Assembly (NCBI RefSeq): GCF_900102345.1
Contig: NZ_FNKB01000001.1
Coordinates: 372,001-436,000 of the forward strand
Source of the DNA: Leucobacter chromiiresistens
GTDB taxonomy: Bacteria; Actinomycetota; Actinomycetes; Actinomycetales; Microbacteriaceae
Length of the DNA stretch: 64,000 nt
Reading direction: 5' to 3'
The position numbers and the translations under genes are program-made. The notes under the pieces are model-generated. The model searched no databases. It saw nothing but the letters and a program-made list of their open reading frames with translations, and was not told the origin of the DNA. Within the stretch, counting starts at the first letter, position 1. The number at the start of each line of letters is the position of its first letter. Below, one piece after another: positions 15,490-63,383 of this stretch.

Positions 15490-15551
15490 CGGCTGACTCC
15501 TCGGTGGTGCGGCGAACTGCACCCATCATCGCGCATGCGGCCGACGGGCGC

Positions 15552-15600
15552 GCCGCACACCTGCACGGGCGGTGCGGCCCGGAGTGTGCAGGTGTGCGGC
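15552..15600. repeat. Palindrome with 15-bp perfect arms
   Basis: Arm GCCGCACACCTGCAC (15552-15566) is repeated inverted at 15586-15600, with a 19-nt GC-rich loop. It sits between the divergent thiolase and carboxypeptidase genes. No T-tract follows. Function unknown; an RNA hairpin or a large operator are both possible. Confidence 0.8.
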
Positions 15601-15636
15601 ACGGCCGGGCGGTGCGCCGGCTCCCCCCCCCCTGCT

Positions 15637-15708
15637 TCGGTGAGAGATTCGGCGTCGGTGCGAGGCCCCGGGGGCGAATCGCCTCACGCGCGCCGAATCT
15701 CTCACCGA
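15637..15708. repeat. Palindrome with 18-bp perfect arms
   Basis: The 18-bp arm at 15637-15654 (core GGTGAGAGATTCGG) is exactly inverted at 15691-15708, with a 36-nt loop. It lies 37 bp after the 15552-15600 palindrome and 36 bp before the carboxypeptidase start. The arrangement of two unrelated perfect palindromes in one 255-bp divergent gap is unusual. Confidence 0.8.
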
Positions 15709-15744
15709 CGCGACGGGGTCCCGAAGCGCCCTAGGGTGGATCGG

Positions 15745-32622: not shown

Positions 32623-34301
32623 CCCAGCTCCTCGACATCGCAGACCTCTCGCTGCGGGTTCCGGGCCGTGGCCCGCTGCTGAACGGGGTCTCGATCTCCG
32701 TCGCCTCCGGCGAATCGGTGGCGCTCGTCGGCGAATCCGGATCGGGCAAGTCGCTCACCACCCGGGCCGCCCTCGGCCTCTTCCCCGACCACGCCTCGCT
32801 CGACGGATCGGTGCGGGTCGGAGACATCGACACCGTCACCGCGACGGAGGCGCAGCTGCGCACCATCCGCCGCACCCGCGCGTCGATGATCTTCCAGGAT
32901 CCGCGAGCCGGCATCAACCCCGTGCGCACCCTCGGCGACTTCCTCACCGAGACGCTCGTGCGCTGGCACGGGCTCAGCCGCGCCGACGCCGCCGCCCGCG
33001 CCGTCGCGCAGCTCGAGCAGGTCGGTCTGCCCCGCGCCGCGGCGCTGCTCGACCAGTACCCGCACCAGCTCTCGGGGGGCATGCTGCAGCGCGTCATGAT
33101 CGCCGCTGCGCTGCTCGACTCCCCCGATCTGCTGCTCTGCGACGAGCCGACCACCGCCCTCGACGTCACCACGCAGGCGGGCATCGTCGAGCTGCTGCGC
33201 GAACAGCAGGCGGCGCGCGGCATGGGCATGCTGTTCATCACGCACGATCTCGGGTTGGCCGCCTCGCTGTGCGAGCGCGTCGTCGTGCTGCGGGGCGGGC
33301 GCGTGGTCGAGGAGGGGGCGACCGAGGCCGTGTTCCGCGCCCCGCAGGAGGCGTACACGCAGGAGCTGCTGGCCGCGACGCCGCGCATCGAGGTGCGGGA
33401 TGCGGGTGCTGGTGCTGGTGCCGACGCTCTCGGCGATCCGGATCCCGCCGCCGGCGCGTCCGGTGCCGACGGTGCCGTAGGTGCCGACGGTGCCGGCGCG
33501 TCCGCCGCCGAGCCTCCGCTCATCGCGGCGTCCGGGCTCACCAAGCGCTACCGGGTGCCGGGCCGCGACGACGTGACGGCGCTCTCGGGCGTCGGCTTCG
33601 CGCTCGCACGCGGCGGATCGCTCGGCATCGTCGGCGAATCGGGGTCGGGCAAGTCGACGCTCGCCCGCATCCTCGTCGGGCTCGAACAGGCAGACGCCGG
33701 CGAGCTGTCGTTCGGCGGCGTCGCGCGCCCCGATCGGGCTATGTCGGGCGCCGAGCGCCGCGAGCTGGCGGCGACCACGCAGATGGTGTTCCAGGATCCG
33801 TACCTGTCGCTCGATCCGCGCATCCCGATCGGGCGGGCCGTCGCCGACGTGGTGCGTCTGCATCGCGGCGGAGCGCGGCGCGAGGCCGAGACGGTGGCCG
33901 CGTCGCTGCTCGAACGCGTCGGCCTCCGCCCCGACCAGCTCGCGGCGCGGCCGAAGGCGCTCTCGGGCGGCCAGCGGCAGCGCGTCGCGCTCGCGAAGGC
34001 TCTCGCCGCCGGGCCGAAGCTGCTCGTGCTCGACGAGGCGACGAGCGCGCTCGATGTCTCGGTGCAGGCGCAGGTGCTCGAACTCATCGAGGAGGTGCGC
34101 GACCAGTTCGGCCTCTCCATCGTCTTCGTGACGCACGACCTCGCGGTCGTCTCCCGCATCTGCACCGAGACCCTCGTGATGCAGCGCGGCGAGGTGGTCG
34201 AGTACGGCAGCACCGCGCAGATCCTCACCGACCCCCAGGAGGAGTACACGCAGCGCCTCATCACCTCGCGGCCCGCGCCGCTCTGGCAGCAGGCCGCGTA
34301 G
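32619..34301 (+). CDS. Fused dual-ATPase subunit of the ABC importer (DppD-DppF type)
   Basis: 560 residues made of two complete ABC domains. The first has Walker A GESGSGKS (38-45), LSGGMLQR signature and LLLCDEPTTALDV Walker B; the second has GESGSGKST near 343, LSGGQRQR and LLVLDEATSALDV. A Gly/Ala/Asp-rich linker (about 265-302, from repetitive DNA) joins them. Such DppD-DppF fusions occur in actinobacteria and proteobacteria (YejF, GsiA-like). It ends the operon with the stop entering a 20-bp-arm hairpin. Confidence 0.92.
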   Translation: MTQLLDIADLSLRVPGRGPLLNGVSISVASGESVALVGESGSGKSLTTRAALGLFPDHASLDGSVRVGDIDTVTATEAQLRTIRRTRASMIFQDPRAGINPVRTLGDFLTETLVRWHGLSRADAAARAVAQLEQVGLPRAAALLDQYPHQLSGGMLQRVMIAAALLDSPDLLLCDEPTTALDVTTQAGIVELLREQQAARGMGMLFITHDLGLAASLCERVVVLRGGRVVEEGATEAVFRAPQEAYTQELLAATPRIEVRDAGAGAGADALGDPDPAAGASGADGAVGADGAGASAAEPPLIAASGLTKRYRVPGRDDVTALSGVGFALARGGSLGIVGESGSGKSTLARILVGLEQADAGELSFGGVARPDRAMSGAERRELAATTQMVFQDPYLSLDPRIPIGRAVADVVRLHRGGARREAETVAASLLERVGLRPDQLAARPKALSGGQRQRVALAKALAAGPKLLVLDEATSALDVSVQAQVLELIEEVRDQFGLSIVFVTHDLAVVSRICTETLVMQRGEVVEYGSTAQILTDPQEEYTQRLITSRPAPLWQQAA

Positions 34302-34345
34302 GGGCCCGGGCTGGGCCGGGCCGGGCCCGGCCCAGCCCGGGCCCC
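34301..34345 (+). terminator. Perfect 20-bp-arm hairpin at the end of the ABC operon
   Basis: Arms at 34301-34320 and 34326-34345 are exact inverted copies, GC-only but for one A/T pair, with a 5-nt loop (CCGGG). The first base is the last base of the ATPase stop codon. No T-tract follows; it probably acts as an intrinsic-like terminator or protects the 3' end of the mRNA. Confidence 0.75.
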
Positions 34346-41698: not shown

Positions 41699-42157
41699 TC
41701 ACACGTGATGATACGAGCGGTTCGCCGATATCTCCTGCGAACGGTACAGCTGCTCGACGAGCACGAGACGCACGAGCTGGTGCGGGAAGACGAGCCGCGA
41801 GAGGCTCCACACGAAATCGGCGCGCGCCCGCACCCGGTCGTCCACGCCGTACGCCCCGCCGATGATCACCGTCACCGACCGGCCCCCGTCGAACGCCCGC
41901 TGCAGCGTGCGCGCCAACTCGGGCGAATCGACGCCCCGCCCGCGCTCGTCGAGCAGCACGACGAAGGCGTCGCGATCCAGCTTCGCGAGCAGCCGATCCG
42001 ACTCCTCGGCGCGCGCCGCCTCCCCCTCGCGCGAGGAGTGCGGCAGCAGCTGCCACGCCGTGTCGAAGGGCTTGCGCAGGCGCTTCTCGTACCGGCCGAT
42101 GCCCTCCGAGACCCAGCTCTCGTGCTTCTTGCCGACGGCGAGCACCCGGACGCTCAC
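41699..42157 (-). CDS. rlmH: 23S rRNA (pseudouridine-1915 N3)-methyltransferase RlmH
   Basis: 152 residues from GTG 42157, which overlaps the aminotransferase stop (GTGA). SPOUT-fold methyltransferase; the SAM-binding knot is seen as VVLLDERGRGVDSPELA, VTVIIGGAYGVDD and the C-terminal LSRLVFPHQLVRLVLVEQLYR with YRSQEISANRSYHH, which is nearly invariant in RlmH. It modifies Psi1915 in helix 69 of assembled 70S ribosomes. Coupling to an aminotransferase has no evident functional reason. Confidence 0.96.
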   Translation of the reverse strand: MSVRVLAVGKKHESWVSEGIGRYEKRLRKPFDTAWQLLPHSSREGEAARAEESDRLLAKLDRDAFVVLLDERGRGVDSPELARTLQRAFDGGRSVTVIIGGAYGVDDRVRARADFVWSLSRLVFPHQLVRLVLVEQLYRSQEISANRSYHHV

Positions 42158-43377
42158 GCCCGCCTCGTCTCGAGATACTCCGCGATGCGCCCGATGGCCT
42201 CGGTGAGCACGGGCACCGACGGCAGGGTGACGAACCGCAGATGATCGGGCGTCGGCAGGTTGAAGCCGCGGCCGTTGGTGACGAGCACGTGCGTGGCGCG
42301 CAGCACATCGATGACGAACCGCTGATCGTCGACGATCGGGTACACCTCGGGGTCGAGCCGCGGGAAGAGATACATCGCCCCGCCCGGCAGCTCGCAGCCG
42401 ACCCCCGGAATCTCGGTGAGCAGCCGGTGCGCCGCGTCCCGCTGCTCGCGCAGCCGCCCGCCCGGGGCGCACAGCTCGGCGATGCCCGACCAGTTCGACG
42501 CCGGCGACAGGGCGACGGGGATCGCGTGCTGCGCCGGCACGTTCGCGCACATGCGCATGTTCGCGAGCAGCTGCAACCCCTCCAAGAAGTCGCGGCCCCG
42601 GGCCCGGTCGCCCGAGATCGCGAGCCACCCCGCCCGGTAGCCCGCGACGCGCTGCGCCTTCGACAGGCCGCTGAAGGTGAGGCAGAGGGTGTCGCGCACG
42701 TGCAGCGCCGCATGCTCGTGCCGGGCGCCGTCGTACAGGATGCGCTCGTAGATCTCGTCGGCCATGAGCACGAGGCCGTGCCGCTCGGCGAGCGCGGCGA
42801 ACCCGCGCACCAGCTCCGCCGAGTACACGGCCCCCGTCGGATTGTTGGGGTTGATGAGCACGATGCCCTTCGTGGCGGGCGTCACCAGGCGCTCGATCGC
42901 GTCGAGATCGGGCATCCATCCGTTCGCCTCGTCGCACGGGTAGTGCACGGCGAGGCCGCCCGAGAGGGTGACCTGCGCCGTCCAGAGCGGGTAGTCGGGG
43001 GACGGCACGAGCACCTCGTCGCCCTCGTCGACGAGCGCCTGCACCACCAGCGAGATCATCTCGCTCACGCCGTTGCCGATGAAGACGTCGTCAGGGGTGA
43101 CGCCCGCGACCCCCTCCTCCGTGTAGTAGCGCGCGACCGCCTCGCGGGCGGGGAGGATGCCGCGCGAATCGCTGTACCCCTGCGCCTCGGCGAGCGCCTC
43201 CTGCAGCCGCTCCACGATCTCGGGCGGCGCCTCGAACCCGAACGGCGCCGGGTTGCCGATGTTCAGCTTGAGGATCCGATGGCCCTCGCGCTCGAGGCGC
43301 TCGGCCTCCTGCAGGATCGGGCCGCGCACGTCGTAGCGCACCCCCGCGAGCTTCCGTGACTGGGTAATAGTGCGCAC
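42154..43377 (-). CDS. PLP-dependent class I/II aminotransferase (AlaA-like)
   Basis: 407 residues from GTG 43377, which has AGGA 8 bp upstream; GTG 43383 is a close alternative. The fold-type I pattern is clear: NIGNPAPFGFEAP, QGYSDSRGILPAREA, INPNNPTGAVYS, DEIYERILYD, and PLP lysine in SGLSKAQRVAGYRAGW (Lys about 240). The last motif and the N-terminal RYDVRGPILQEAERLE match AlaA/AvtA-type alanine and valine-pyruvate transaminases rather than AspC. It would make alanine from pyruvate and glutamate. A 68-bp palindrome lies 124 bp upstream. Confidence 0.9.
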   Translation of the reverse strand: MRTITQSRKLAGVRYDVRGPILQEAERLEREGHRILKLNIGNPAPFGFEAPPEIVERLQEALAEAQGYSDSRGILPAREAVARYYTEEGVAGVTPDDVFIGNGVSEMISLVVQALVDEGDEVLVPSPDYPLWTAQVTLSGGLAVHYPCDEANGWMPDLDAIERLVTPATKGIVLINPNNPTGAVYSAELVRGFAALAERHGLVLMADEIYERILYDGARHEHAALHVRDTLCLTFSGLSKAQRVAGYRAGWLAISGDRARGRDFLEGLQLLANMRMCANVPAQHAIPVALSPASNWSGIAELCAPGGRLREQRDAAHRLLTEIPGVGCELPGGAMYLFPRLDPEVYPIVDDQRFVIDVLRATHVLVTNGRGFNLPTPDHLRFVTLPSVPVLTEAIGRIAEYLETRRA

Positions 43378-43500
43378 GGTCACGATCCTACGTCGCGCGG
43401 CCGCTCGGCCGCCGCCCCCGTTCCGCTGCGGCCGCGCCGCCGCCCGCCTCTCCTGCGGCCGCGCCGCCGCCTCTCCTCTCTTCTCCTCTCCCCTTTCGAG

Positions 43501-43568
43501 AGCGGGGTCACTTGCGGAGGGTGTTGCAGCGGTTGCGCACACCGACACACTCCGAAAGTGACCCCGCT
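43501..43568. repeat. 68-bp palindromic element, copy A
   Basis: 24-bp arms (43501-43524, 43545-43568; outer part AGCGGGGTCACTT/AAGTGACCCCGCT) with two mismatches and a 20-nt loop. It sits in the 314-bp gap between the APC permease stop and the aminotransferase start. It is flanked by a pyrimidine-rich tract upstream (about 43430-43497) and a GGAGCGGC-repeat tract downstream (about 43577-43670) that could extend the stem. No gene is visible in this gap. Confidence 0.9.
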
Positions 43569-43691
43569 CACGGATTCGGAGCGGCGGCGCGGCGGAGCGG
43601 CGGAGCGGCGGAGCAGCGGAGCGGCGGAGCAGCGGAGCGGCGGAGCAGCGGGGCGGCGGAGCAGTGGAGCGGCCGCGGGGCCGGATCGCGG

Positions 43692-45083
43692 TCAGCGCTC
43701 CGAGAGCACCGGAACGGGGCGCCGGAAGCCGCCCGTCGCGACCGCGAGCATCACGACGCCGAGCGCGAGCCACACGCCGCCCACCGCGTACGCCTCGGGG
43801 TGCAGCTGCGAGAACAGGTACAGGTCGACGGCGAAGCCCGCGATGGGGACGAGGCTCAGCAGCGCCCGCGCCGCGACCGGGCGCGACCGCTCGGCGCGCC
43901 GCCAGATCCACACGAGGAACGCGATGTTCACGAGCGCGAACGCCAGGAACGCGCCGAAGTTGATGTACGCGGTCGCCGTGCCGATGTCGAGCAGCATGCC
44001 GAACATGCCGATCGCGCCGATCAGCAGGATGTTGAGCCACGGCACCCGGAACGCGTTGCTGAGCCGCCCGAACACCGCCCGCGGCAGCACGCCGTCGCGC
44101 CCCATCACGAAGAGCAGCCGGCTCGACGTCGCCTGGATCGCGAGGCCCGACCCGAAGCCGGCGATCACGCTCACGAGATTGTTGATGTTCGTGAACGCGG
44201 CGCCGCCGGCGAAGATGGAGATCGTGTACCCGGCCGTGTCGGGATCGTCGAAGGCCCCTCCGGGGTGCACGAGCTGCATGAGCAGTGAGACGCCGACGAA
44301 GATGCATCCGCCGATGAGCACCGCCAGCACGATCCCCCGCGGAATGTCGCGCTTCGGCTCCTTCGTCTCCTCGCTGAGCGTGCTGATCGCATCGAACCCG
44401 AGGAACGAGTACGCCGCGACCGCCGCGGCGGAGCTGACGGCGACCACGCTTGTCTCCTCGTTCCAGAGCGCACTCGAGACGGGCGCGCCGCCCTCGCGGC
44501 CGAGGAACAGGAGCAGCACGACCACGAGCGCCGCGACCGAGGCCATCGCGGCGACGGTGAGCACGATGTTGACGCGATCCGCCAGCGCGATGCCCAGCAG
44601 GTTGATCGCGGTCGTCGCGCCCACGTTGACGACCAGCCACACCCACAGCGGAATGCCCGGGAACTGCGCGTGCAGGTACGTCGATTGGATCAGCCACGCC
44701 ACCATGGGCAGGAAGAGGTAGTCGAGCAGGATCACCCACCCGGCGAAGAACCCCGCGACGCGCCCCAGCGTCTTGCCGACGTAGGTGTAGGCGGATCCGG
44801 CGTTCGGGTACGCCCGAGCGAGCACCGCGTAGGCGATCGCCGTGAGGAGCATCGCCGCGGTGGCGATGAGGTACGCCGTCGGGGCGGCGCCGCGGCTCGC
44901 CCCCGATACGACTCCGAACGTCGAGGTGACGATGCCCGGCGCCATGTAGGCGAGCCCGAAGAAGACCACCCCGAGCAGCCCGAGTCGCGGCAGCAGCTTC
45001 GTCGGCTGCAGGCCCTGCAGGCCCTGCACGCCCTGCGCGCCCTGCGCGGCCTGCGCGCCCTGCGCGGAGGTCGGCGCGCTCAC
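43692..45083 (-). CDS. APC-family amino acid permease
   Basis: 463 residues from GTG 45083, coupled to the nitrilase stop by GTGA. Twelve helices; helix 1 has GLAYMAPGIVTSTFGVV, and SFLGFDAISTLSEETKEPKRDIPRGI is the APC/YfnA signature around helix 6-7. The first 26 residues contain AQG/LQG tripeptide repeats from a 9-bp DNA repeat and are likely disordered. The family takes up amino acids or amines by proton symport. Its pairing with a nitrilase and TetR suggests import of an amide or amine substrate. Confidence 0.9.
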   Translation of the reverse strand: MSAPTSAQGAQAAQGAQGVQGLQGLQPTKLLPRLGLLGVVFFGLAYMAPGIVTSTFGVVSGASRGAAPTAYLIATAAMLLTAIAYAVLARAYPNAGSAYTYVGKTLGRVAGFFAGWVILLDYLFLPMVAWLIQSTYLHAQFPGIPLWVWLVVNVGATTAINLLGIALADRVNIVLTVAAMASVAALVVVLLLFLGREGGAPVSSALWNEETSVVAVSSAAAVAAYSFLGFDAISTLSEETKEPKRDIPRGIVLAVLIGGCIFVGVSLLMQLVHPGGAFDDPDTAGYTISIFAGGAAFTNINNLVSVIAGFGSGLAIQATSSRLLFVMGRDGVLPRAVFGRLSNAFRVPWLNILLIGAIGMFGMLLDIGTATAYINFGAFLAFALVNIAFLVWIWRRAERSRPVAARALLSLVPIAGFAVDLYLFSQLHPEAYAVGGVWLALGVVMLAVATGGFRRPVPVLSER

Positions 45084-45937
45084 TCGCCCGCCTCCGCTCC
45101 GCGCGGCGCCCACGTCTCGGGCGAGATGCGCCCGGCGTACAGCGGCAGCTCGATCGGCGCGTCGTCGGGGCGGAGCTGCGCCCACGGCCGCGACACCCCC
45201 GCCGTGCCGAACCGGCGCACCGCGCTCACCTGGTCGAAGTCGACGACGCTCGTGAGGATCTGCTGCTCCGCGGTCGACGACTGCATGCGGATCGCGCCGT
45301 CGGGATCCACGACGAGCGACCGGCCGCGGCCGGTCGGTGCGGCGGCGTTCACCGATGCGATCCATACCTGGTTCATGATGGCGTTGCCGCGCACGATGGC
45401 GAGCTCCTGCTCGCGGTCGCTCGTGTTCGTCTGCACGAGGTTCAGGATCAGATCGGCGCCCGCCCACGCGAGGTGGCGGGCGTGCTCGGGGAACCAGATG
45501 TCGTAGCAGATCGAGATGCCGATCCGCCCGTATCCGGGCAGGTCGAAGACGGTGAACTCGGCGCCGGGAGCGCAGGTCTCGGCCGGGCGCCACGGGAAGA
45601 TCTTGCGGTACGTCGCGCGCACCTCCCCGTCGGGGCCGAACACCAGCGCGGTGTTGTGCACGCGACCGGAGTCGCTGCGCTCGAAGAAGGTGCCCGGCAC
45701 CAGCCAGATGCCGAGTTCGGCGGCGAGCGCGGCGAGCCGGGCGAAGCGCTCGTCGTCGAGCGGGCGGGCGATGCTCTCGATATCCGGGGTGCCGACCGGG
45801 GTGTCGAGGTGCAGCTCGGGGTAGACCCAGAGACGCATCTGCGGGTGGGCGGCGGCGCTCGCGCGGAGGTGCTCTGCGAACGCGGAGAGTGTTGTGGCGT
45901 GGTGCTGCACCAGTGCAACACCGAGTGATCGGCTCAT
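45080..45937 (-). CDS. Carbon-nitrogen hydrolase (nitrilase superfamily)
   Basis: 285 residues. The Glu-Lys-Cys triad is visible as YPELHLD (Glu about 46), YRKIFPW (Lys about 114) and ISICYDIWFPEHARHLA (Cys about 148). The family hydrolyses nitriles, amides or carbamoyl compounds to acids and ammonia; the WFPEHAR context is seen in aliphatic amidase/nitrilase-like proteins. Start ATG 45937 follows GGGAAGG; ATG 45952 has no Shine-Dalgarno. Operon with the APC permease, divergent from a TetR gene. Confidence 0.88.
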   Translation of the reverse strand: MSRSLGVALVQHHATTLSAFAEHLRASAAAHPQMRLWVYPELHLDTPVGTPDIESIARPLDDERFARLAALAAELGIWLVPGTFFERSDSGRVHNTALVFGPDGEVRATYRKIFPWRPAETCAPGAEFTVFDLPGYGRIGISICYDIWFPEHARHLAWAGADLILNLVQTNTSDREQELAIVRGNAIMNQVWIASVNAAAPTGRGRSLVVDPDGAIRMQSSTAEQQILTSVVDFDQVSAVRRFGTAGVSRPWAQLRPDDAPIELPLYAGRISPETWAPRGAEAGE

Positions 45938-45947
45938 GGGCCTTCCC

Positions 45948-45963
45948 TTCATTGGTTAATGAA
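45948..45963 (-). promoter_or_regulatory. AT-rich inverted repeat, candidate TetR operator of the nitrilase operon
   Basis: TTCATT-GGTT-AATGAA, perfect 6-bp arms, in the AT-rich core (45945-45985) of the divergent gap between the nitrilase and TetR genes. A second imperfect repeat (GGTTA...TAACT) overlaps it. It lies at the nitrilase Shine-Dalgarno/upstream edge, where a repressor could block transcription. Inferred. Confidence 0.5.
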
Positions 45964-46037
45964 ACTTTAAATAACTATTGCTGGACGTGTCAACCGGGCT
46001 GCGCGCGGCGCCCCCTCCGCTCTGAAAGAATGAGCGC

Positions 46038-46652
46038 ATGGCCCGCCCCCGCAACCAGGAAGCCCGCAAGCGCGAACTCATCGCGGTCACGTCGCGGCTG
46101 CTCATCGAACGCGGGCAGGGCGGCGCGCGTCTCGTCGACATCGCTGAGGCCGCCTCGCTCACGCCGGCGGCGGTCAGCTACTACTACCCCGATCTCGCCG
46201 ACCTCTACGCCGACACGTACGAGACGGCGATCGCCGAATACTCGACGCGGCGTCGGGAGCATGTCGCGCACGTCGCTTCGCCCGTCGAGCGCCTCACCGA
46301 GTGCATCGCGCTCGGCGTACCCCGCACCGGCACGAGCTCGCACGCCGCCACCGTGCTGCTCATGGAGCTCTCGGCGCTCGCGCTCCGGCAGGAGCGCATC
46401 CTCGCCTCGGGCGTGGAGTTCGAGGCCGAGCAGCTCGACCTGTTCAGCGAGATCCTCGAATCGGGTGCCCGCGCGGGCGCGATGCGGCTGCAGTACGACG
46501 TTCTCGAGACCGCCCGGGCGATCCTCGCCGTCGAGGACGGGATCGCGATTCCGGTCACCGCGGGCCGCCTCCCGGCGGATGATGCGCTGCGCGTCTCCCT
46601 GTCGGTCGCGTCGTCGCTGACGGGCGCGAATCTGCTCGCGGGCCGCCCGTAG
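46038..46652 (+). CDS. TetR-family transcriptional regulator
   Basis: 204 residues. N-terminal HTH (about 8-55): RKRELIAVTSRLLIERGQGGARLVDIAEAASLTPAAVSYYYPDLADLY-like spacing, with the recognition helix TPAAVSYYY. C-terminal helical domain (about 75-195) resembles TetR_C with no known ligand. It is divergent from the nitrilase/APC permease operon across 100 bp and probably represses it. The gene converges with the zinc metallopeptidase gene across copy B of the 68-bp palindrome. Confidence 0.88.
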   Translation: MARPRNQEARKRELIAVTSRLLIERGQGGARLVDIAEAASLTPAAVSYYYPDLADLYADTYETAIAEYSTRRREHVAHVASPVERLTECIALGVPRTGTSSHAATVLLMELSALALRQERILASGVEFEAEQLDLFSEILESGARAGAMRLQYDVLETARAILAVEDGIAIPVTAGRLPADDALRVSLSVASSLTGANLLAGRP

Positions 46653-46795
46653 GGATCGCGGCTGCCCCGAGCCGCTCCGCCGCCGCGCCTCCGCTCCCCC
46701 TCTCCGCCGCTGCCCCGCTCTGCCGCTCCGCTCCCCCTCTCCGCCGCTGCCCCGCCCCGCCGCCCCGCTCCCCTCACCTTCCTCGCGTCCTCGCG

Positions 46796-46863
46796 AGCGG
46801 GGTCACTTTCGGAGGGAGTTGCAGCGGTCGCACACACCGACACACTCCGAAAGTGACCCCGCT
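46796..46863. repeat. 68-bp palindromic element, copy B
   Basis: Arms 46796-46819 and 46840-46863, two mismatches, 20-nt loop. The right arm is identical to copy A's. It occupies the 296-bp convergent gap between tetR and the metallopeptidase. A pyrimidine-rich tract upstream (about 46675-46785) and a GGAGCGGC-repeat tract downstream (about 46872-46925) mirror those of copy A. Confidence 0.9.
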
Positions 46864-46948
46864 CGCAGATTTGGAGCGGCGGAGCGGCAGAGCGGCGGAG
46901 CGGCGGGGCGGGGCGGGGCGGGGGCCGTTCAGCCCGCGAGCACGCCGC

Positions 46949-48493
46949 CTAGGAGCACTGACCGTCGTGCAGGGCTCGCGCGATCCGGTCGGTCTCCTCG
47001 GTCATCGTGTACTCGGGAGCCGTCTCCGATCGGCTCTGCAGCTCATCGAAATCGGCCCCGAAGAACAGCACCGCGTACGAGCTCGTGACGCCCTCCGTGA
47101 GCGTTCCGGTGATGGGCGGCCGCGGCGTTCCGCACGTGTCGAAGGTGACCGCGTGAGCGAGCTCGTGCTTCATGACGTCGATGAATGCGGGGCTCGAGAG
47201 ATTCTGCGGATACCCCGGCGCCGTGTCGTTGACGTAGATCACCGAGGGGTTGGCGGCGCAGAAACCGGCCTCCGCGATGCCGGTCGGATCCGACTCTATG
47301 CAGTACTGCCGCACCGCCGAGTAGTCGAAGCTCACCTCGCGCCCGAACTGGGCGGCGAGCAGCTGCGCGGCGCTCGCGTAACTGCCATCGGCGTCGGGCT
47401 GAGCCGCGAACCCCCGCGCGTACGTCTCGGGATCGCTGGCGAGCGGCGCGCCGTCGGGCCCCTCCGCCGGTGCGCGATCGCCGCTGTACTCGCGCACCTC
47501 GCCGTTCTCGTCGGTGATCTGCACCGTGACGTCGAGATCCTCACCCGCGGCGAATCTGCGCTCGATCTCCTCGACCTCCGTGACGTACGCCTGGATGCGG
47601 TCGTCGAGCTCGGCGGCGTCGGTGCTCATCGTCGATCCGGCGAATCGCAGTGCCGAGCGCAGGTCGGTCAGCTGGTACAGCAGCGCCGCGTAGTAGTCGG
47701 ATGAGACGCTCCGCCCGTTGGGCGTCATGTCGAAGATCGTGCCGTCCTCGGCGGCCTGCGAGTACGTGTCGAGGGTGCCGACGACGTACGTCTCCATCGC
47801 GTCCCAGCCCGGCCGCTCGTTCATCACGTACACGGTCGCGGCGGTGGACTGCCCGCTGATCGCGCCGTCGACCACCGAGCTGCCCCACTTCCCGAGCGCA
47901 TTGACGGCGGCGAACAGCAGTCCGACGACGATCCCCACGACCAGCAGGACCCCGAGCGCTACGAACAGCAGCGTCTTGCCGACGTTGATCTTGCGCGGCG
48001 CCGGCGGTGCGGCCGGGGGCGGGGACGGCAGGTGCGGGTGCTGCGGGTGCTGGTGCTGGTGCTGCGGGTGCTGCGGATGGGGAGCACCGGGAGCGTACTG
48101 CTGCAGGCCCTGATGCGTCGGCGGAAAGCCCGGCGGCTGGTTCGGGGAGCCGACGTGCTGGATTGAGGCGCCGCTGTGCTGGATCGGGTAACCCGGCTGC
48201 TGGTTCGGGACGCCGGGCGGCTGGACGGGGTGGCCGGGGTACCGATTCGGGACGCCGGGCGGCTGGGCGGGGTGGCCGAATGGCTGCTGGATCGGCTGGC
48301 CGGGCGGCTGCTGCGGGTACCCCTGCTGATGCGCGTGACCCGGCTGCTGCGGCCAGCCCTCCGGCTGCTGCGGGCTTCCGGGCCCCTGCGGGTACCCGGC
48401 TTGCTGCTGAGGTGGCTGCTGCTGCGGGGAACCGGGCTGCTGCTGCGCCTCCGGTTGCTGCGCAGGCGGCTCGGGCTGGCGCGACTCGGTCAT
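46949..48493 (-). CDS. Membrane-anchored zinc metallopeptidase with a Gln/Pro-rich N-terminus
   Basis: 514 residues from ATG 48493. Residues 1-166 are an extended Gln/Pro/Gly/His-rich cytoplasmic tail with PQQ- and QPPGVPN-type repeats; 174-197 form one membrane helix; the rest is extracellular. HELAH (443-447) is the HExxH zinc site and Glu467 in TLTEGVTSSY the likely third ligand, as in neutral zinc metallopeptidase-like (YpfJ-type) proteins. Cys449-454-region and terminal Cys could form a disulfide. The substrate is unknown; such proteins occur in actinobacterial envelopes. It converges with tetR. Confidence 0.82.
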   Translation of the reverse strand: MTESRQPEPPAQQPEAQQQPGSPQQQPPQQQAGYPQGPGSPQQPEGWPQQPGHAHQQGYPQQPPGQPIQQPFGHPAQPPGVPNRYPGHPVQPPGVPNQQPGYPIQHSGASIQHVGSPNQPPGFPPTHQGLQQYAPGAPHPQHPQHQHQHPQHPHLPSPPPAAPPAPRKINVGKTLLFVALGVLLVVGIVVGLLFAAVNALGKWGSSVVDGAISGQSTAATVYVMNERPGWDAMETYVVGTLDTYSQAAEDGTIFDMTPNGRSVSSDYYAALLYQLTDLRSALRFAGSTMSTDAAELDDRIQAYVTEVEEIERRFAAGEDLDVTVQITDENGEVREYSGDRAPAEGPDGAPLASDPETYARGFAAQPDADGSYASAAQLLAAQFGREVSFDYSAVRQYCIESDPTGIAEAGFCAANPSVIYVNDTAPGYPQNLSSPAFIDVMKHELAHAVTFDTCGTPRPPITGTLTEGVTSSYAVLFFGADFDELQSRSETAPEYTMTEETDRIARALHDGQCS

Positions 48494-48579
48494 GCATTCA
48501 CCATACTGAGTCGAACGTCCCGGTCGAGAGCGCGGTCCCACCCACGCACCTCCACACCCCGCACCCTCCCACTTTTGCG

Positions 48580-48647
48580 AGCCGGGTCACTTTCGGAGCG
48601 TGTCGCACCGAAAACCACCGCCGACACCCTCCCGAAGTGACCCCGCT
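48580..48647. repeat. 68-bp palindromic element, copy C
   Basis: Arms 48580-48603 and 48624-48647, four mismatches (the most diverged left arm), 20-nt loop. Located in the 450-bp gap between the metallopeptidase start and the ABC exporter stop, 87 bp upstream of the metallopeptidase start. No gene is visible in this gap, apart from copies C and D and a hexamer repeat. Confidence 0.88.
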
Positions 48648-48763
48648 GGTCGTGCGAGCGGAGAGAGGGGCGGTGTCGGTCAGGCAACGACGCGGATGGG
48701 CGAACGCCGATGGTCGCGGACACCGACTGACGCATCGCCGACGCACCCTGCCTCCGCCATCGG

Positions 48764-48831
48764 AGCGGGGTCACTTTGGGAGGGTGTCGCGCCTGAAACG
48801 GTCGCCCACACCCTCCCGAAGTGACCCCGCT
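48764..48831. repeat. 68-bp palindromic element, copy D
   Basis: Arms 48764-48787 and 48808-48831, with a single position not Watson-Crick (T opposite G, a wobble in RNA), 20-nt loop. Starts exactly 184 bp after copy C. Its right arm is identical to that of copy C. It lies 113 bp downstream of the ABC exporter stop. Confidence 0.92.
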
Positions 48832-48943: not shown

Positions 48944-50818
48944 CTACTGCTGCTGGGCGTAGAGCTCGGCGTAGGCGCCGCCCCGCTCGAGCAGCTGCTG
49001 GTGGGTGCCGTGCTCGAGGATGCGCCCCCCGCCGACCACGTAGATGCGGTCGGCGTCGACGATCGTCGAGAGGCGGTGGGCGATCGCGATGGTCGTGCGG
49101 CCGCTGCGGGCGTCTTCGAGGGCGTGCTGCACGATGCGCTCGTTGACGGTGTCGAGCGCGCTCGTCGCCTCGTCGAGCACGAGCACGCGGGGGTTCTTGA
49201 GCAGCACGCGCGCGATCGCGATCCGCTGCTTCTCGCCGCCCGAGAGGCGGTAGCCCCGCTCGCCCACGACGGTCTCGTAGCCGTCGGCGAAGCTCTCGAT
49301 GGTGTCGTGGATGTTCGCGAGGCGCGCCGCGGCCTGCACCTCGTGCAGCGAGGCGTCGGGCTTCGCGTACCGCAGGTTGGCGAGCACCGAGGCGTGGAAC
49401 AGGTAGGGCTCCTGCGTCACGACCCCGATGCGGTCCATGAGCGCCTCCTGTCGCAGCTCGCGCACATCGTCGTCGCCGTAGCGCACGGTGCCGGAGGAGG
49501 CGTCGTAGAGGCGGGGCACGAGCGAGCCGATGGTGGTCTTGCCCGATCCGGAGGCGCCGACGAAGGCCACGAACTCCCCCGGTTCCACGTGAAACGACAC
49601 GTCGTCGAGCGTCGGGCGATCGTCAGGGCCGGCGTCGGGGTAGCGGAACGAGACCGACTCGAACGCGATGCGACCGGCCCGGCCCGGGGCGTCGGACGGC
49701 TCGCGCGCATCGTCGGCGTCGACGATGGCGGGCCGCAGATCGAGGTACTCGAAGATGCGGGCGAACAGCGCCTGCGAGGTCTGCAGGTCGAGCGCGATGC
49801 GCATGAGGGCGACGAGCGGGAAGAGCAGGCGCGACTGCACCGTGGTGAAGGCCACGATCGTGCCCGCCGTGATGCCGGGGTCGAACCCCTCGCTCTGGCC
49901 TCGCGCGATGAGCCACCCCGAGACGAGGTAGACGATCGCGGGCACCGCCGAGAGGAACACCTGCACGAGCGCGAAGAACAGCTGCCCGCTCATCGTCTGC
50001 CGCACCTGCAGGTCGATCTGGTTGCGGTTCTCGGCCGAGTAGCGCTCGGTCTCGGCGCTCTGGCGCGAGTAGGTCTTCGCGAGCAGCACGCCCGAGATGG
50101 AGAGGGCCTCCTGCGTGATCGCGCTCATCTCGGACAGCGACTCCTGCGTGCGGCCGGCGATCTTCGCGCGGATCTGCCCGACGCGTCGCTGCGCGATCAC
50201 GAGCACGGGCATGACGACGACGGCGATGAGGGTGAGCTGCCAGCTGAGCAGCAGCATCGCCACGATGGCGGCGACGACCGTGACCGTGTTGCCGATGATG
50301 TTGGAGACGGTGTTCGTCAGCACGTTCGCGACGCCGCCGACGTCGTTCTGCAGGCGCGACTGGATCACGCCGGTCTTCGTGCGGGTGAAGAAGCCGAGTT
50401 CCATGGACTGCAGGTGGGAGAAGAGTCGCACTCTGAGGTCGCCCATCACGCGGTTGCCGACGCGCGCGGTGAAGAGGGTCTGCACGATCCCGAGCCCGGA
50501 GGAGATGACGAACACGGCGATCATCGCGCCGACGAGCCAGGCGAGCACGGTGAGGTGCGGCCCGCCGCCGTCGAGGGGGAACAGGCCGTCGTCGAAGATG
50601 CGCTGCGTGAGCAGCGGCGGCAGGATCGCGAGCGCGGCCGAGACCAGCACGAGCGCGACGATGACGACGAGCTGCGCGCGGTAGGGGCGGAACAGCGCGG
50701 CGATGCGGCGCCCGAGCCCCGGCACCGCGGGCGCGTCGCGGTTGAGCTTGCGCTGGAGTTCGGCGTCGCCGGCGGAGATGCGGGATCCCCGGCCGACCGG
50801 CCCGCCGCCCATGCTCAT
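48944..50818 (-). CDS. ABC exporter half-transporter (fused membrane and ATPase domains)
   Basis: 624 residues: six-helix ABC_membrane domain (about 40-330) with VGNRVMGDLRVRLFSHLQSMELGFFTRTKTG coupling segment, then an ATPase with Walker A GASGSGKT, Q-loop TQEPYLFHASVLANLRYA, signature LSGGEKQ and Walker B VLVLDEATSALD. It acts as a homodimer, or heterodimer with a partner not present here. MsbA/MdlB-like exporters move lipids, drugs or peptides outward; the substrate is unknown. ATG 50818 or 50812 begins it. It is divergent from the mevalonate operon. Confidence 0.92.
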   Translation of the reverse strand: MSMGGGPVGRGSRISAGDAELQRKLNRDAPAVPGLGRRIAALFRPYRAQLVVIVALVLVSAALAILPPLLTQRIFDDGLFPLDGGGPHLTVLAWLVGAMIAVFVISSGLGIVQTLFTARVGNRVMGDLRVRLFSHLQSMELGFFTRTKTGVIQSRLQNDVGGVANVLTNTVSNIIGNTVTVVAAIVAMLLLSWQLTLIAVVVMPVLVIAQRRVGQIRAKIAGRTQESLSEMSAITQEALSISGVLLAKTYSRQSAETERYSAENRNQIDLQVRQTMSGQLFFALVQVFLSAVPAIVYLVSGWLIARGQSEGFDPGITAGTIVAFTTVQSRLLFPLVALMRIALDLQTSQALFARIFEYLDLRPAIVDADDAREPSDAPGRAGRIAFESVSFRYPDAGPDDRPTLDDVSFHVEPGEFVAFVGASGSGKTTIGSLVPRLYDASSGTVRYGDDDVRELRQEALMDRIGVVTQEPYLFHASVLANLRYAKPDASLHEVQAAARLANIHDTIESFADGYETVVGERGYRLSGGEKQRIAIARVLLKNPRVLVLDEATSALDTVNERIVQHALEDARSGRTTIAIAHRLSTIVDADRIYVVGGGRILEHGTHQQLLERGGAYAELYAQQQ

Positions 50819-63309: not shown

Positions 63310-63383
63310 CGCGGGGTGGAGCAGTTCGGTAGCTCGCCGGGCTCATAACCCGGAGGTCGTGGGTTCAAATCCCGCCCCCGCAA
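63310..63383 (+). tRNA. Initiator tRNA-Met (anticodon CAT at 63344-63346)
   Basis: 74-nt cloverleaf. The first base C opposite A72 is unpaired, and the anticodon stem holds three consecutive G:C pairs next to the loop, both marks of initiator tRNA. D-arm AGCAG...TAGCTC and T-loop GGTTCAAATCC are complete. CCA is not encoded. It is followed by a terminator at 63388. Confidence 0.95.

Follow-up and report, generated by a model that had tools for sequence, protein, structure and literature searches.

A 64-kb stretch of the Leucobacter chromiiresistens genome raises the question of what a set of palindromes of constant length, scattered between genes, might be. Dispersed bacterial palindromes are usually explained by REP-associated tyrosine transposases (RAYTs; REP, repetitive extragenic palindromic) or as RNA hairpins. 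The stretch (C1:372001-436000, hereafter the window; the genome, labelled G000, comprises 3.21 Mb in two contigs) was the subject of an original prediction, which placed four palindromes at 43501-43568, 46796-46863, 48580-48647 and 48764-48831 (copies 1 to 4), and each of them was recovered there with a length of 68 bp. Based on the analysis of this genome and its relatives, we suggest, with a rough probability of 0.46, that these elements are two-fold symmetric sites on duplex DNA for a putative dimeric or tetrameric protein, and that they are homogenised by exchange.

Anatomy and length of the palindromes

A covariance model built from 37 copies returned 80 rows, corresponding to 40 palindromes on two strands and including three new copies at 838231, 1768206 and 1953341. 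The genome contains at least 40 palindromes, a lower bound because 150 of 6751 first-look candidates were scored. The fixed length of 68 bp predicted at the outset holds for all copies in the window, whereas genome-wide there are two classes, a long one (67/68 bp, 29 elements) and a short one (57/58 bp, 11 elements). Each element consists of two 26-bp arms around a spacer of 16 bp in the long class (15 bp in two copies), to which copy 1 and the other window copies belong, or of 5-6 bp in the short class; the 24-bp arms and 20-nt loop described earlier are an alternative cut of the same structure. Taken over 74 half-sites, the consensus reads AGCGGGGTCRCTTNSGGAGNGTGTYG; no half-site departs from it at GGTC of the outer box or at several positions further in, although the copies had been selected by pattern. 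The spacer sequence varies among most copies.

In the window, the outer boxes lie at 43504-43509 (GGGGTC) and 43560-43565 (GACCCC) in copy 1, at 46799-46804 and 46855-46860 in copy 2, and at 48767-48772 (GGGGTC) and 48823-48828 (GACCCC) in copy 4. In copy 3, which lies in the same gap as copy 4, the right box is GACCCC (48639-48644) and the left one has a single base changed (CGGGTC, 48583-48588; AGCCGGGTC). When up to three mismatches were allowed, the half-site pattern matched eight times in the window, i.e., two half-sites per copy, compared with 0.38 on average and at most 3 in 100 shuffles. Arms that vary without keeping their pairing had been named as evidence against the family; such behavior is seen at column 24 (unpaired in 23 of the 37 copies), whereas overall 91.9% of arm cells in the genome pair and the covariation score was reached by none of 500 shuffles. 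Columns 14, 15, 24 and 29 show no significant covariation.

The length rule becomes clear from 161 distinct matches to GGGGTC..GACCCC, for which 30-110 bp were allowed. As many as 155 of them fall at 49-52 or 61-62 bp, with outer-box lengths of 49 (1 match), 50 (4), 51 (14), 52 (38), 61 (60) and 62 bp (38), and none falls at 53-60 bp, part of the DNA behind these matches having been retrieved by a 50-64 bp pattern, which spans the empty range. The six other matches measure 63, 64, 67 and 76 bp (one each) and 80 bp (two). About one helical turn (10-11 bp) separates the two classes, and such a step is commonly a sign of helical phasing on duplex DNA. Each of the 19 pattern matches in another Leucobacter genome (G029) measures 51 bp, and their arms are 21/21 with a leftover loop of 9 (four elements), 21/23 or 23/21 with 7 (nine), or 23/23 with 5 (six); because arms and loop compensate in this way, it is the total spacing that is held rather than the length of the loop or the stem. 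With 14 possible lengths, the chance that 14 lineages would all land on 6 of them is roughly 7e-6, a figure that relies on an estimated count of independent lineages. Such a rule speaks for a protein that recognises the duplex and would grip both outer boxes.

The two arms of an element also match each other better than arms of different elements in several genomes. All matches of G029 (19), G032 (18) and G063 (10) were used for this comparison, together with 15 of 18 from G060 (two 62-bp and one chance-like 52-bp match left out), 13 of 14 from G034 (a chance-like 67-bp match left out), and those of G016 split into family a (12) and family b (5). The observed excess was reached by 0 of 3000 shuffles in G029 and in G016 family a and by 5 in G060; the signal weakens in G034 (60) and G063 (86), becomes doubtful in G032 (201) and is absent from G016 family b (2492). 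This covariation could stem from hairpin-mediated repair, from descent or from selection.

Species dialects and shared sites

In a scan with one genome per GTDB species, 92 stretches were obtained, and all of the 80 listed are from Leucobacter. The outer-box pattern, with 25-50 free bases between the boxes, matches 19 of 54 Leucobacter genomes; three of these (G009, G065 and G068) have single matches that are not palindromes by eye, leaving 16 genomes, and G004 has covariance-model matches only. The main check of the original prediction, a search for further copies in the genome and its relatives, was thus answered positively in both. The richer genomes hold about 10-40 copies, and their arms are species-specific: TTSGGCAGGGTGTCG in G013 and G001 (taken as L. 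chromiireducens L-1 and LYC-2, respectively), CTCTTCGTGCGTGTCG in G060 (taken as Leucobacter sp. L43), TTTTGGCCGTGTCG in G029 and AGTTTCTGGTACTAAA in G034. Two further genomes, G012 and G030, were taken as Leucobacter sp. PH1c and L. ruminantium A2. In G063, the inner arms are asymmetric by eye (mostly GTGTYG on one side and GTGCG on the other), and the copies may have an orientation.

Within the Microbacteriaceae, 22 of 299 genomes (7 of the 299 being Leucobacter) matched, most of them by one match that is not palindromic by eye; because the pattern used here spans 52-70 bp only, it would overlook any dialect of 50-51 bp in other genera. No dispersed fixed-length family under other boxes was found in 400 kb each of the element-free genomes G003 and G005 (approximately 11-13% of the genome), which contained 7 and 29 inverted repeats, respectively, with one similar pair in G005. 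Plasmid and phage collections gave no match to copy 1, and a loose pattern matched 10 viral contigs, these being pattern matches alone.

Comparison of gaps between orthologous genes provides a view of how the elements change. The genome G022 (taken as L. chromiiresistens NS354) is about 86-97% identical to G000 in the main aligned blocks, and all 22 of its elements with a comparable G000 gap have an element there, 7 of them in the other length class. In the reverse direction 23 of 26 were matched, and the three misses comprise two at L050, which map by eye to an element-bearing gap in L157, and L039:3488, a chance palindrome. All nine gaps compared between Leucobacter sp. L43 and G000 were matched, 7 in the other class. 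Between the two L. chromiireducens genomes, 14 of 14 elements were matched from G013 to G001 and 14 of 15 from G001 to G013, with one clear absence (G001 L226:2860) that leaves no clean empty site. Some sites are also common to different dialects with both neighbours matching, such as L032/L137, L043/L250 and L134/L077.

A stricter count yielded 20 G022-G000 pairs, 6 of which are switched in class, and 7 L43-G000 pairs with 5 switched. Box positions differ at 3/240 in G022-G000, 1/84 in L43-G000 and 1/108 in G001-G013, whereas arm positions 7-20 differ at 91/560 in the 20 G022-G000 pairs, class switches included. A less biased observation is that the match lies in the same gap, and not elsewhere, in each stretch of about 10 kb compared. 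That sites are shared and their sequence replaced in place favours an exchange among sites already present over insertion elsewhere.

Two sites in the window differ in this way from G022. At copy 1, the orthologous site (L101:3026) has the same class and a similar loop. Copy 2 resembles copy 1, 3.3 kb away, and the orthologous G022 site holds an unrelated 58-bp element; copy 2 is thus an in-place replacement. The loops of the window copies had been said to differ, but those of copies 1 and 2 are alike at 18 of 20 positions by eye, and for this reason copy 2 probably arose from copy 1 not long ago. The site of copy 3 is occupied by a 58-bp element in G022, in which the neighbouring site L101:8144 carries nearly the loop of copy 3. 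Local duplicates exist as well, e.g., two in L050. A short Vsr/DUF559-like nuclease gene (by eye) lies between two elements in G000 (L036:4060-4386) and in G022 (L104), and is strongly divergent between the two genomes.

Genes, flanks and chromosome position

It had been stated that the palindromes lie only between genes and carry no open reading frame. Mechanical open reading frames do cross copies, whereas genes called by codon usage enclose no element in any of 135 rows, a number of which come from overlapping loci, and 2 of the 37 G000 copies overlap a gene edge, by 61 and 11 bp. The 37 copies comprise 13 between convergent, 20 between tandem and 4 between divergent genes. The convergent share (13/37 vs 36/258 among neighbouring gene pairs in the same loci) is a modest excess because convergent gaps account for about 26% of the summed gap length. 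In the window, where gene names were given by eye, copy 1 is flanked by two minus-strand genes, one aminotransferase-like (about 42154-43383) and one permease-like (about 43692-45113). Copy 2 lies between a plus-strand TetR-like gene (46038-46652) and a convergent minus-strand gene (46949-48493) that is protease-like with a HELAH motif, and copy 3 is located upstream of the latter and downstream of a minus-strand ABC-transporter-like gene (48944-50818). Gene cassettes bounded by elements were considered and set aside, the enclosed genes looked at being ordinary and unrelated by eye. Among 98 neighbours, no transposase or recombinase occurs in the 25 most frequent of 138 Pfam families, a tally that left out neighbours from G001 and other genomes.

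The flanks are asymmetric. Their GC skew is -0.27 on the left (n=37) and +0.22 on the right (n=35), compared with -0.05 in both halves of 62 control gaps, and its sign is the same in every gene arrangement, being weakest in the four divergent copies (-0.16 and +0.13, with standard errors of about 0.09 before correction for double counting). In G000, G013 and G001, the strand entering the element has a C content of 0.52-0.59 and a G content of 0.18-0.26 over the first 20 nt, and the skew fades over approximately 60-100 nt. At copy 1, for example, the plus strand is C-rich and G-poor at 43441-43500 and the other side (43569-43680) is G-rich, so that either strand is C-rich ahead of the element (by eye). 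The flanks tend to continue as inverted rather than direct repeats (by eye).

Other structures are present in the window. Two adjoining long palindromes of unrelated sequence (15634-15711 and 15545-15607, with arms cggtgagagattcggcg and gcgccgcacacctgcac) stand outside the GGGGTC family, and a near-perfect GC-rich palindrome of 45 bp (34301-34345) is likely an ordinary hairpin. At the gathering score, Rfam had no match on the elements, the sole match in the window being a tRNA (63310-63383).

The distribution along the chromosome was analyzed with dnaA as the origin and sites thinned to one per 20 kb (the contig order of G000 was assumed and its C2 copy left out). The quarter around the terminus contains 0 of 36 thinned sites in the single-contig genomes G032, G034 and G016 (family a), and 2 of 22 in G000. 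The empty arc around the dnaA antipode spans 37% in G032 (P = 0.0027), 37% in G034 (P = 0.020) and 31% for G016 family a (P = 0.077), these genomes being less than fully independent because ancestral sites are shared. Origin-proximal gene dosage during exchange could be an alternative cause of this thinning. In G034, a match to the DnaA C-terminal domain is split in two pieces (C1:2119910-2120112), for which a frameshift or an assembly error is possible.

Bound sites, selfish repeats or RNA structures

We propose that two inverted half-sites, each headed by GGGGTC and held at a fixed helical spacing, would be bound by a putative dimeric or tetrameric protein, and that the sites would most likely swap sequence among themselves by gene conversion or template switching. 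Such exchange would let the dialects of the species drift apart, with the outer boxes and the spacing preserved. The anatomy, the length rule, the dialects, the shared sites, the switches in place, the flank asymmetry and the scarcity of copies near the terminus are observed directly; the protein, the mechanism of exchange and a possible role of the sites in chromosome organisation or regulation we infer. The nucleoid-protein sites and the non-autonomous mobile repeat, both named in the original prediction, are retained as the best and the second reading, respectively.

Several points weigh against the protein-site proposal. No binder of the elements has been identified, and some of the constancy in length could be inherited through copying. 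Covariation of arms within elements, seen in several genomes, is not needed by a plain binding site and could arise when imperfect palindromes are repaired. The distribution of the family is patchy, with 35 of 54 Leucobacter genomes lacking a pattern match and 3 of the 19 positives chance-like. Box conservation is partly built into the detection because at most one box mismatch per element was allowed, and the shared-site figures are inflated by the sampling of G000 DNA mainly around G000 elements. The stricter count for G001-G013 (9 pairs) includes no class switch, and part of G016 family b, which has 5 copies, is found close to the terminus, with 1 of 4 thinned sites in the terminal quarter. 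Finally, four 58-bp palindromes beginning GGGGTCAATGCGG or GGGGTCAGTGCGG in a genome of another Microbacteriaceae genus (G188, L275-L278) have the same outer box, a different interior and a length outside the two classes; they are possibly a distant relative or an unrelated family.

A serious, if less probable, alternative is a selfish population similar to REPINs (REP doublets forming hairpins), in which a non-autonomous palindrome would be copied and homogenised by a non-RAYT enzyme and its length fixed by synapsis of correctly phased ends. Its anatomy is that of REPINs as described in excerpts of PMC3116915, the species dialects and the likeness within each genome would follow, and a precedent is offered by the CGTC class of REPs, which apparently lacks a dedicated transposase according to excerpts of PMC3733652. 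However, neither this genome nor any other of the 54 Leucobacter genomes searched matched the RAYT domain (PF01797), with control matches in 5 of 14 reference genomes, and the RAYT mobilisation considered initially was rejected as unsupported. Direct target duplication was not seen by eye in the flanks examined, nearly all elements are shared in the biased sample of comparable orthologous gaps, the absence in G001 being without a clean empty site, and no free half-site was found beside a transposase in this genome, in which half-sites with up to two mismatches all lie in palindromes, bar one.

It is unlikely that the palindromes function as RNA, either as bidirectional terminators or as 3′-end protectors, perhaps Rho-dependent ones since each strand is C-rich ahead of the hairpin. 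The RNA folds of each window copy beat all 200 shuffles (z from -6.4 to -10.9), and together with the covariation, the modest convergent excess and the C-rich, G-poor entering strands they speak for this possibility. On the other hand, a total length held while loop and arms vary, with the range of 53-60 bp empty, has no obvious reason in RNA, and the 4 of 37 copies between divergent genes have flank skew of the same sign, though weak. No run of four or more T residues directly follows any of the four window copies (by eye), i.e., the U-tract of intrinsic terminators is missing there, and the hairpins of the family-free G005 have mostly unique stems and small loops. The RNA 3′-end structures suggested originally are therefore disfavoured.

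Equally doubtful is a narrower form of the protein-site proposal, by analogy with known systems, in which the sites would serve a putative actinobacterial chromosome-organising or nucleoid-occlusion protein, the dialect co-evolving with it and variants being replaced by homing-like exchange. Least probable are neutral relics, i.e., an ancient repeat whose copies ordinary gene conversion keeps similar and which now has neither function nor mobility: neighbour-copy exchange in the window and the local duplicates of L050 are attainable by recombination alone, but the two length classes persist over many dialects while flanks and loops change, and class-switched conversion would start from about 13 bp of homology per side, less than RecA needs.

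No description of this Leucobacter family was found in the open-licence literature, and a word search of a 2025 REP survey (PMC12306157) gave 0 occurrences of both Leucobacter and GGGGTC. The family is of interest in that it has no RAYT and that its lengths, a helical turn apart, hint at a site read as double-stranded DNA, and shared sites with swapped sequence represent a natural experiment on the homogenisation of short repeats within a genome. The length rule and the dialects also make it amenable to clear pull-down and re-spacing tests.

Among known systems, REPINs have inverted conserved ends, a less conserved spacer of fixed length and compensatory changes, and are extragenic (excerpts of PMC3116915 and PMC8049555). 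The Leucobacter family likewise has inverted conserved ends, a constant-length spacer, compensatory arm changes, extragenic positions and within-genome populations; it differs in its two constant lengths about one helical turn apart that are kept across dialects, the lack of a RAYT, the outer box GGGGTC and its common sites across species, at which the sequence has been exchanged. It is similar to REPINs in how it works and is not a member of them, because the anatomy is REPIN-like but RAYT is absent. The GTAG/CGTC REPs are dispersed extragenic palindromes, often in inverted pairs and mostly in unidirectional or convergent gaps, which differ in their tags and in having units of 20-40 bp (excerpts of PMC3733652, where the word 'actinobacteria' occurs 0 times in a word search). 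A GTAG/CGTC end tag is not present in the Leucobacter elements, whose shared outer motif GGGGTC is preceded by various bases (by eye). Miniature inverted-repeat transposable elements (MITEs) and Tn3-derived elements are also short with terminal inverted repeats, and Tn3 ends likewise begin with GGGG. The Leucobacter elements are much shorter than these, show no target duplication by eye and have no parent transposon found in the genome; the lone half-site (C1:1513008), a candidate trace of one, was rejected as it sits in a relaxase-like gene.

A further comparison concerns nucleoid occlusion. Noc and SlmA have tens of palindromic sites (about 70 Noc-binding and 24-52 SlmA-binding sites) that are underrepresented around the terminus; Noc sites are 14 bp long with no long fixed spacing in the description (excerpts of PMC4726725). 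The Leucobacter family also comprises tens of palindromes per chromosome, which are missing around the terminus in three genomes (one family per genome), but its palindromes are longer and have a fixed spacing. This resemblance may be regarded as a lead only. According to excerpts of a Corynebacterium glutamicum paper (PMC7118173), the nucleoid occlusion and Min systems of Escherichia coli and Bacillus subtilis are absent in Actinobacteria, and if the sites do organise the chromosome, they would bear on how these bacteria keep division off the nucleoid.

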